64,000 nucleotides of DNA, taken from positions 1 to 64,000 of the IMG/VR virus record IMGVR_UViG_3300013109_000495, one strand, 5' to 3'. The translations under genes and the position numbers were made by a program. Positions 39,362 through 43,050 of the stretch are shown here, one piece after another (within the stretch, counting starts at the first letter, position 1; each line of letters begins with the position of its first letter). The notes under the pieces were generated by a model. It was not told the origin of the DNA, made no database searches, and saw only the letters and a program-made list of their open reading frames with translations. This stretch comes from a virus.

Positions 39362-39369
39362 TTTAAATA
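39362..39369 (+). promoter_or_regulatory. Late-promoter-like octamer TTTAAATA
   Basis: The octamer overlaps the first possible ATG (39369) of the sulfotransferase gene. With -13 at 39362, transcription would start at 39375, exactly on the next in-frame ATG. Confidence 0.45.
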
Positions 39370-39950
39370 TGAATATGCGATATTGTTTTCATCATATACC
39401 AAAAACAGGTGGCAGTACATTAAAAGCAAGATTAAATCATCGAGCATCAATTGGACAAATAGATAAATTTTCATATGCAATAGGACATAATATAAGTGTA
39501 TCCACACCTGGTAAGCACTATACATTATTAAGAAATCCTTTACACAGAGATATATCACATTTCAATTATGATTTTAATAAAAAAGAAAGCATAGCAAACA
39601 CATTTGAAGAAAGTTGTAATAAAATGCATGGCAATTTTATGGTACTTTGGTTATATTCAAACTATCTAAAACAGTCAACTAACATACCAATTGAAGAAAA
39701 ATATAAACAAGTACAAACAATACTAAAAAATAATTTTTTAAAAATTTTTAATGCTGATAAATTTGAAAACTCATGGAAAGAAATTACAAAAATATTAAAC
39801 ATCGATGTTGAACCAAGACTAAATTCCAATATATCTAATATAGATTATAACAAAATTGCAAAATATGAAAATTTATCTAACAAATTTAAAAAATGGCACA
39901 AACAATATAACCAGTATGATTATCTTCTTCATGAAGAATTTTGTATGTAG
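39369..39950 (+). CDS. Sulfotransferase family protein
   Basis: 193 residues. 'FHHIPKTGGSTL' (about 7-18) is the 5'-phosphosulfate-binding loop of PAPS-dependent sulfotransferases, and 'YTLLRNPLHRDISHF' (about 55-69) matches the 3'-phosphate-binding Arg/Ser block. The rest is Lys/Asn-rich and less conserved. The ATG at 39375 is a better start than 39369 because the late-promoter octamer overlaps the first one. It is a stand-alone gene between the gp23 terminator and a small membrane gene. Modification of a host or virion surface sugar is inferred; the substrate is unknown. Confidence 0.75.
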   Translation: MNMRYCFHHIPKTGGSTLKARLNHRASIGQIDKFSYAIGHNISVSTPGKHYTLLRNPLHRDISHFNYDFNKKESIANTFEESCNKMHGNFMVLWLYSNYLKQSTNIPIEEKYKQVQTILKNNFLKIFNADKFENSWKEITKILNIDVEPRLNSNISNIDYNKIAKYENLSNKFKKWHKQYNQYDYLLHEEFCM

Positions 39951-40069: not shown

Positions 40070-40303
40070 ATGGATATCATGGTAAAGGTAAAAGGATGGG
40101 CAAAAGGATTAGCTGATGTAGGCGTAAGTCTAATAGCATTAGGAATCGTTTTAGAAATTCTTTTTAATGGTCAAGGTGTTCCGTTCTGGCCACATATTTC
40201 TGTAATAGGAAATGTTCAGGGCGTACTTGCTGGCTTTTCAGATCAAGGTTTGGTCGGATTAGTAGCAATTTGGATTTTATATCATATCTACAATCGAAAA
40301 TAA
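40070..40303 (+). CDS. Small membrane protein, unknown function
   Basis: 77 residues with two hydrophobic segments: 'LADVGVSLIALGIVLEILF' (about 14-32) and 'GLVGLVAIWILYHIY' (about 60-74). The N-terminus is basic and amphipathic. There is a strong AGGGAGG site before the ATG and a terminator immediately after the gene, so it is a single-gene unit. Similar small proteins occur near capsid genes in marine T4-like phages. A holin-like or other membrane role is possible but not shown. Confidence 0.65.
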   Translation: MDIMVKVKGWAKGLADVGVSLIALGIVLEILFNGQGVPFWPHISVIGNVQGVLAGFSDQGLVGLVAIWILYHIYNRK

Positions 40304-40334
40304 TATAATAATCTAGAAATACGTTAACCTCAGA

Positions 40335-40380
40335 GAGTGGTGTAACTACTTTTAATTTTACACCACTCTTTTTTTATTTT
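40335..40380 (+). terminator. Strong Rho-independent terminator
   Basis: An 11-bp perfect stem GAGTGGTGTAA/TTACACCACTC (40335-40345 and 40358-40368) followed by a T-rich run. It separates the small membrane gene from the fibre cluster. Confidence 0.88.
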
Positions 40381-40384
40381 TTTT

Positions 40385-40392
40385 CATAAATA
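40385..40392 (+). promoter_or_regulatory. Late promoter octamer CATAAATA
   Basis: It lies directly after the terminator. Predicted transcription starts near 40398, just before the structured leader of the gene at 40491. Confidence 0.6.
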
Positions 40393-40405
40393 TATACAGT
40401 TCAAA

Positions 40406-40475
40406 CAGAGCTCCACTCAAGTGGAGACTTATGCGGAATTAACCGCGTAGCGAGTAGAACTCGCATTAGGCTCTG
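40406..40475 (+). promoter_or_regulatory. Four-way-junction structured 5' leader
   Basis: A closing stem CAGAG/CTCTG (40406-40410 with 40471-40475) encloses three hairpins: CTCCAC-UCAA-GTGGAG (40411-40426), GCGG-AATTAA-CCGC (40433-40446) and GCGAGT/ACTCGC (40450-40464). The ribosome-binding site AGGAG (40479-40483) follows 3 nt after the closing stem. Every arm pairs perfectly, which is unlikely by chance in AT-rich DNA. It may be a translational control element or a 5' stability cap. No known riboswitch class is recognised. Confidence 0.65.
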
Positions 40476-40490
40476 AACAGGAGAAAACAA

Positions 40491-40907
40491 ATGGGAAGAC
40501 CAATCAAAAAAAGTAAATTTGTATCAAGTTTTGGTGGCACAACAGCGGCTAAAATTGCAGTAACTGGATATCGACCAAGTGGTGGATCTTTAGTTAGCTC
40601 ATCTATTGCATACATTGTATCTCAAAGAGGATCTAAATTATTCAAGATTCACTTAGAAGATTCAACTGAAGCAATTTATGAATTAAAAGCAGTAGCACCA
40701 GCATCGTTGGCAAATACATCCAACCAATTTTGTGTACAAATTACGCTAGATGACTCAACTGTGGCTTATGTAGAGAAATTCTACAATAACACAGTTCACT
40801 ATGTTACGGCGGCAGGCGCGGCTGGAACAGTTCCTTACACATTAGGAACTGATATCTCTGGCTCAATTGCGGCAGGTAAAGGTAATATAGACATAGTATC
40901 TGAGTAA
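40491..40907 (+). CDS. Small virion-associated protein, unknown function
   Basis: 138 residues, no membrane segment. The basic N-terminus MGRPIKKSKF is followed by a beta-rich, Ser/Thr/Ala-rich body ('LFKIHLEDSTEAIYEL', 'CVQITLDDSTVAYVEKFYN'). It is the first gene of the accessory structural cluster, has its own late promoter, a structured leader, an AGGAG site and a terminator, so it is probably made in quantity late in infection. Decoration of head or tail is plausible, but no family is recognised with certainty. Confidence 0.6.
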   Translation: MGRPIKKSKFVSSFGGTTAAKIAVTGYRPSGGSLVSSSIAYIVSQRGSKLFKIHLEDSTEAIYELKAVAPASLANTSNQFCVQITLDDSTVAYVEKFYNNTVHYVTAAGAAGTVPYTLGTDISGSIAAGKGNIDIVSE

Positions 40908-40938
40908 TAGTCACTAGACACGTGCTTATAAGAATATT

Positions 40939-40965
40939 GGGGGAGTTTAGGCTCCCCCTTTCTTT
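40939..40965 (+). terminator. Rho-independent terminator
   Basis: GGGGGAG/CTCCCCC stem (40939-40945 and 40952-40958) followed by TTTCTTT. The next late promoter starts 2 nt later. Confidence 0.85.
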
Positions 40966-42492: not shown

Positions 42493-43050
42493 ATGCCTAC
42501 ATTTCCTAACGGGCATTTCAATTGGCTTTGGCCTTACGTATCAACACAAACATTAAGAACTGCAATAGACATAGGCGGCCACTTAGGAAACTGGACATTA
42601 AATTGGCACCATAGAGTAAAAAAAATTGAAATATTTGAACCTAATCCCGATGTACTACCTAAACTCAAAAAAAATACTAATACATTAAAAAATTGCACTG
42701 TACATGAAGTTGCTTTAGGTGATACTCCTGGAAAAGTTTCTATGCAATATGAAACTCATCTAGGCACCTACCATATAAAAGATCATAATGGTTCTATTAA
42801 TTTACAAACACTTGACAGTTATAATTTTCAAAACGTAGATATTATAAAAATAGATGTTGAAGGATTTGAAGTACCTGTGTTGGAAGGTGCAAAAGAAACA
42901 ATTCTTTCTAACAAACCATGGATACAGATTGAAGCAAATCATACTGGAGAACGTTACGGTAGACCTAAAAAGAAAATACTTGAAAAGTTAACGGAATTTG
43001 GAATGAAACGAATTGCTAAAGAGTGGCCTGATCAAATTTGGAAATTTTAA
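42493..43050 (+). CDS. FkbM-family methyltransferase
   Basis: 185 residues. 'AIDIGGHLGNWT' (24-35) is the SAM-binding glycine loop, 'IEIFEPNPDVLPKLKKN' gives the acidic residue after strand 2, and 'DIIKIDVEGFEVPVLEGA' (about 116-133) is the hallmark FkbM motif. FkbM enzymes O-methylate sugars and related hydroxyl groups. It is located inside the fibre cluster, so methylation of a glycan or a virion protein sugar is plausible. It converges with a minus-strand structural gene 3 nt away. Confidence 0.85.
   Translation: MPTFPNGHFNWLWPYVSTQTLRTAIDIGGHLGNWTLNWHHRVKKIEIFEPNPDVLPKLKKNTNTLKNCTVHEVALGDTPGKVSMQYETHLGTYHIKDHNGSINLQTLDSYNFQNVDIIKIDVEGFEVPVLEGAKETILSNKPWIQIEANHTGERYGRPKKKILEKLTEFGMKRIAKEWPDQIWKF

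Follow-up and report, generated by a model that had tools for sequence, protein, structure and literature searches.

What is the folded leader that separates a late promoter from a small gene in the virus record IMGVR_UViG_3300013109_000495, and how might it act on that gene? We analysed positions 1-64,000 of this record (hereafter the window, 64,000 nucleotides; the full record is 121,819 bp); the record includes a T4-like head module with a gp21-type protease, a gene in scaffold position and gp23. A preliminary description of the DNA had placed here a late promoter, a compact fold and, 3 nt further on, a ribosome-binding site, and both the coordinates and this anatomy were confirmed in the window sequence, with the Shine-Dalgarno (SD) sequence AGGAG beginning 3 nt past stem P1 (Table 1). 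The parts make up a short self-contained unit (40334-40963) of terminator, late promoter, ~93-nt leader, SD, an open reading frame (ORF) of 138 aa and a second terminator, which is probably monocistronic. The first terminator insulates the leader-gene unit; it went unflagged by the terminator scan because its 12-nt loop exceeds the limit of the scan. In T4, the late promoter box precedes +1 by about one helical turn (PMC2988020), and the TATAAATA-like box of the window unit stands at that spacing from the predicted RNA start (~40397-40399). The upstream 77-aa ORF (40070-40303, +), membrane-protein-like and without a family match, has its own TAAATA box (40021) and a strong terminator at its end. 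Further along the window, a 193-aa ORF (39369-39950, +) carries the motif HIPKTGGST, typical of sulfotransferases when judged by eye, with no Pfam match at 0.01, and an FkbM-type methyltransferase (42493-43050, +; PF05050, E 6.6e-18) lies amid tail-fibre-like genes.

Table 1. Features of the leader-gene unit, in coordinates of the window (MFE, minimum free energy structure)
Feature	Position	Strand	Remarks
Intrinsic terminator of the upstream 77-aa gene	40334..40376	+	12-bp stem AGAGTGGTGTAA/TTACACCACTCT, then T run; sequence reading
T4-type late promoter box CATAAATA	40385-40392	+	T4 consensus TATAAATA; C at first position
5' leader	40398..40490	+	RF02980 freshwater-2 match 40411-40493
P1, 5' strand CAGAGC	40406-40411	+	Pairs with 40470-40475; 6 bp in MFE
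Hairpin H1, UCCAC/GUGGA	40412-40416/40421-40425 (element 40412..40425)	+	MFE; variable sequence, ends near conserved UUAUG
Hairpin P2, UAUGCGG/CCGCGUA	40430-40436/40443-40449	+	Covariation at pairs 5 and 6; UUAUG and CGUA almost invariant
Hairpin P3, GCGAG/CUCGC	40450-40454/40460-40464	+	Stem freely covarying; conserved loop hexamer UAGAAC 40455-40460
P1, 3' strand GCUCUG, alternatively anti-Shine-Dalgarno	40470..40475	+	CUCU pairs with GGAG
Shine-Dalgarno AGGAG	40479..40483	+	Sequence reading; ATG at 40491
138-aa MGRP-family (MGRPxxK...) protein	40491..40907	+	Beta-rich; ORF directly 3' of leader
Intrinsic terminator 3' of the 138-aa gene	40939..40963	+	Terminator scan

RNAfold assigned the leader an energy of -31.9 kcal/mol (z = -4.16); 200 dinucleotide shuffles averaged -19.1 +/- 3.1, and not one reached the stability of the leader. 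The predicted structure contains the three hairpins that had been proposed, although not all are perfect, P2 including a conserved U.G wobble and thus departing from strict Watson-Crick pairing; the closing stem is likewise present in the window, at 6 bp rather than the 5 bp claimed. H1 also reaches 6 bp if C40411-G40426 is counted, and a GUU 5' of P1 (40399-40401) is able to pair with AAC at 40476-40478.

When the whole window was compared by cmscan with the 4227 families of Rfam 15, the sole match above cutoff was this leader, which scored 74 bits against RF02980, "freshwater-2 RNA" (gathering cutoff, 49.9), over model positions 1-84 of 84 and up to the AUG of the 138-aa ORF. It is the only RF02980 copy in the 121.8-kb record. 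No known riboswitch class of Rfam 15 was matched in the window at its gathering score or at E <= 1, and the two matches below cutoff were chance ones, neither of them to a riboswitch; this bears out the earlier statement that the fold does not correspond to the glutamine, SAM, THF or preQ1 classes. What that statement missed is that the element, outside the named riboswitch classes as it is, had already been catalogued. The window leader has the same three consecutive hairpins as RF02980, with the fixed UUAUG...CGUA and UAGAAC also found in its 298 relatives, and the same SD-AUG end; it lies in cis just 5' of the SD and AUG, as does the element at 117 of the 120 listed loci. Unlike the Rfam model, which consists of three hairpins and the SD-AUG end, it has a 6-bp closing stem where the model is unpaired. 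The leader almost certainly belongs to RF02980, which Rfam holds as a cis-regulatory motif without an assigned function. The freshwater-2 motif reportedly comes from the survey of Weinberg et al. 2017. The literature that we searched, a set to which this founding survey did not belong, yielded no mention of freshwater-2 or RF02980 and no gene, promoter or phage context for it. The facts given below on its gene, promoter, copy number and clade-specific P1 appear to be additions to RF02980, some of which may be in the founding survey.

A gene-blind scan for P2 together with the loop of P3 gave at least 120 matches in IMG/VR, and further IMG/VR scans (for the loop plus SD, for the SD plus MGRP codons only, and for the protein) brought the total to 298 distinct parsed leaders, 297 of which have TAAATA upstream of the element. 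P2 takes the form UAUG-S-N-G/C-N'-S'-CGUA, the UUAUG and CGUA ends being required by the parser, and 297 of the 298 leaders keep both of its free pairs complementary, with exchanges C-G/G-C and G-C/A-U/U-A; additional exchanges at the P2 ends were seen by eye in three leaders outside the parser (L228, L244 and L267). Pairs 1-3 of P3 are complementary in 291/298, 296/298 and 281/297 leaders, respectively (94-99%), and use all Watson-Crick types. The loop of P3 reads NUAGAAC, the hexamer being UAGAAC in 262 leaders, GAGAAC in 28, UAAAAC in 7 and GAAAAC in 1 (n = 298). A resemblance of UAGAA to a T-loop was considered and dropped, since 28 leaders have G in its first position. MAFFT puts the gaps of P3 and H1 in the wrong places, so that RNAalifold recovered P2 alone from its alignment, and the leaders were therefore parsed directly. 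Across 115 aligned leaders, 97.5% of the P2 and P3 cells pair and 200 show double changes (shuffled controls, 42.8 +/- 9.7); pairing falls to 21-54% when the partner is slid by 1-3 columns. Conservation of pairing across homologues, on which the preliminary description had made its proposal depend, is thus seen as strong covariation in both P2 and P3. The folded core of the leader is real and conserved; that it is a chance fold without function has a negligible probability, being at odds with the folding energy of the window leader and refuted by covariation far above the shuffled and slid controls.

H1 varies in length and sequence. In most leaders its outer stem reaches exactly to UUAUG, and in 220 of 297 this stem begins 4-6 nt past TAAATA, where the RNA is expected to start. 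Matching of the ends of this outermost stem exceeds that in shuffled controls (258 against a mean of 190 and a maximum of 204). An outermost H1 stem, formed by 5' GUC with the GAC before UUAUG, is likely, and is graded so rather than proven because many leaders have just 2-3 bp. In one subgroup (L276, L008, L027 and L252) the P2 loops include GAC (AAUGACCC), the complement of the GUC at the 5' terminus, so that a pseudoknot or an alternative pairing of the H1 base may form. A transcript that begins at a stem recalls the papA-type 5'-stabilising stem-loops of bacterial mRNAs: RppH and RNase E depend on 5' ends being single-stranded, and a stem at the 5' end stabilises an mRNA (PMC3997798). The leader might accordingly be constitutive, its 5'-terminal structure shielding the first nucleotides of the mRNA from the two enzymes and raising and prolonging the output of an abundant late protein with no ligand involved. 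The placement and the matching ends of the outermost stem fit this explanation, as does an SD that is mostly free in about half of the leaders. It leaves unexplained, however, why the UAGAAC loop and the UUAUG/CGUA base are invariant, and also why the element is restricted to one gene while the major capsid gene is without it; papA-type stem-loops are not expected to have a fixed loop sequence or single-gene specificity, and pairing of the first nucleotides is only partial in the window leader. We regard a purely constitutive role, the chief alternative to the reading favoured below, as possible but unlikely.

The distance from the core to the SD ranges from 1-2 nt to ~20 nt, and the leaders split into long-tail and short-tail classes. 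Within the subgroup of the window, CAGAGC/GCUCUG is nearly invariant, and a sister group has 5' GUUCAA opposite UUGGAC in its place, with coordinated variants GUCAAA/UUUGGC (L386) and GUCAA/UUGGC (L076 and L117). Short-tail leaders have neither closing stem, so that P1 is missing in about half of the family. P1 was also considered as a family-wide covarying stem and rejected, the permutation value in the long-tail class being 9.77 against a shuffled mean of 9.48 (maximum, 10.38). The four-way junction of the preliminary description accordingly holds for the window clade but is not a feature of the family, sister clades having other pairs and short-tail leaders none; restricted to one clade and without covariation, it is a clade-specific embellishment. 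Long-tail leaders have a pyrimidine run (CUCCU or CUUCU; CUCU in the window) that can pair with AGGAG, and the SD is predicted to be least accessible in sister clade A2 (mean 0.08, 38 leaders), followed by the CUUCU group (0.43), the group of the window (0.60) and the short-tail leaders (0.63). For the window leader, the predicted energies are -32.0 kcal/mol with P1 closed and -29.5 kcal/mol for the anti-SD fold with the 5' strand blocked, a gap of 2.5 kcal/mol, and an exchange between P1 and anti-SD pairing is a possible switch.

That the geometry fits a translational operator or a riboswitch, as had been proposed, agrees with what we find: the leader that joins the late promoter to the small gene is cis-acting, structured and conserved. 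As a metabolite riboswitch, the three-hairpin core would bind a small molecule, an event relayed to the SD by P1 or by the anti-SD helix; the compact core with its fixed nucleotides, the position of P1 beside the SD, the alternative P1/anti-SD pairing of the window clade and the orphan status in Rfam are all compatible with such a device. The element is tied, however, to one non-metabolic phage gene family and not to a pathway, P1 is absent from so many leaders, and no known riboswitch model was matched, which together make a metabolite riboswitch improbable. The cyanophage glutamine (glnA) riboswitch is also a structured cis element of T4-like marine phages (PMC9964418), but the window leader does not match its model and has other conserved nucleotides.

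The coupling of the leader to one gene is nearly exclusive. Among the 120 matches listed from the gene-blind scan, 119 precede one protein family (117 ORFs start with MGRP and 2 are MARG relatives), as expected of an element of the autogenous-operator type; in the exception (L042), the leader stands ahead of a different protein, and an MGRP-family gene (MGRLNKKYF...) lies leaderless ~2 kb downstream on the same strand. Conversely, 192 of 200 MGRPx(N/K)K starts in the gene-anchored set have the core, including 65 of the 72 loci new in that scan, 36 of these with a P2 other than GCGG. Nearly all viral records scanned contain one copy of the leader, and two records with tandem gene copies contain two. 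Second or tandem MGRP copies occur at seven loci, with both copies leadered in L147 and L223 and the first copy only in L244, L261, L269, L277 and L298. No leader was found in Atu_ph07, in Phosso or on contig L343, and a very divergent copy in L244 falls below detection. On L343 (2990-3010), from a phage close to the window, the late promoter is followed directly by ATGGGAAGACC, with no leader or SD and an intact coding region; the deletion may be natural, or the assembly may be in error. Neither gp23 nor any other late gene of the window is preceded by the element, which is therefore unlike a general enhancer. Searches of INPHARED with the leader DNA gave chance matches only, and tblastn with the protein of the window gave no match; two other family members used as queries found Atu_ph07 and Phosso, whose gene is leaderless. 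The only GTDB match, L387, is a contig with leader and gene that was placed in a Rickettsiales MAG of marine origin (MED657); it likely belongs to a phage and gives a weak hint of an alphaproteobacterial host.

The 138-aa product had no match in Pfam and only borderline matches in PHROG. Its AlphaFold model is beta-rich (mean pLDDT 83.8, the first 20 residues being less certain), and a fold search of the PDB returned nothing significant (best Foldseek E, 0.09); the best VIA match, a weak one, was a tandem Tudor (Z 3.9, rmsd 2.9 over 64 residues). No recognised RNA-binding domain was found in the protein, the Tudor/KOW-like resemblance being weak (Z at most 3.9). Its relatives by fold are proteins of the jumbo phages Atu_ph07 and Yersinia fHe-Yen9-03/04, those of the latter annotated as possible surface proteins. 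Given the late promoter and the genome location, the protein is probably virion-associated; that its gene is highly regulated, as the preliminary description stated, is an inference.

Taken together, we tentatively favour, at somewhat less than an even chance, a translational operator whose sequence would be recognised by a protein, possibly the one that the gene encodes, over the constitutive leader and the riboswitch. The RNA would begin at the first hairpin or immediately 5' of it, from the T4-type late promoter; the fixed patches UUAUG/CGUA at the P2 base and UAGAAC in the P3 loop would form the recognition surface for the protein, the likeliest candidates being the product of the downstream gene or some other late protein of the phage; and binding beside the ribosome site would lower or time translation of the small late gene. 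In the window clade, GCUCUG could pair either with CAGAGC, leaving the SD free, or with the SD, masking it, as an added switch, for which the closeness of the two window folds and the predicted pairing of the SD in clade A2 speak. The patches are fixed beyond the needs of pairing while the proteins of the family diverge (~17-83% identity to that of the window), which argues for sequence recognition rather than mere stability, and the restriction to one gene points to a recognising factor specific to that gene. Against the operator count the lack of a recognised RNA-binding domain and of covariation support for P1. MGRP is also kept in the leaderless genes of Atu_ph07 and Phosso and in second tandem copies, so that leader binding does not explain this N-terminus, and such leaderless MGRP proteins count against autogeny; the leaderless L343 implies that the leader may be dispensable, unless an assembly error is responsible. 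The narrower proposal, that freshwater-2 is a phage-specific autogenous operator through which a late, probably virion protein would cap its own synthesis by way of UAGAAC and the P2 base, with a two-state switch in the window clade, is conceivable and, on our assessment, rather doubtful. The fixed sequences would suit any factor acting in trans, and the leader might work through a host or other phage factor (a ribosomal protein, a phage RNase or an antisense RNA) or as a stable small RNA, as the short unit bounded by a strong terminator and a late promoter could suggest; with no separate terminator within the leader and with the strict coupling to one gene, we consider this as improbable as a riboswitch.

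The MS2 coat protein, a virion protein, represses translation by way of an mRNA hairpin, its target being the replicase and not its own gene; that operator is a possible precedent for the putative one described here, with no relation in sequence. In T4, gp32, gp43 and RegA are precedents, and gp32 and gp43 act on their own mRNAs, an example of gene-specific autogenous control (PMC3014915). Like the gene 32 and gene 43 operators, the window element is a folded leader near the ribosome site of one gene of a T4-like phage (PMC3014915); unlike it, these serve replication proteins and consist of a pseudoknot or a single hairpin instead of three tandem hairpins, and in the window leader protein binding is putative.

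The near-exclusive link to one gene suggests dedicated on/off translational control of a small late gene. T4-like phages are very abundant in aquatic environments. To our knowledge, the translational control of their late structural genes has been little studied. Tying the orphan motif RF02980 to one late gene family and to a late promoter, usually in one copy per phage, turns it into the subject of a concrete hypothesis, namely that a phage protein, or another factor, may read the leader of the gene itself.
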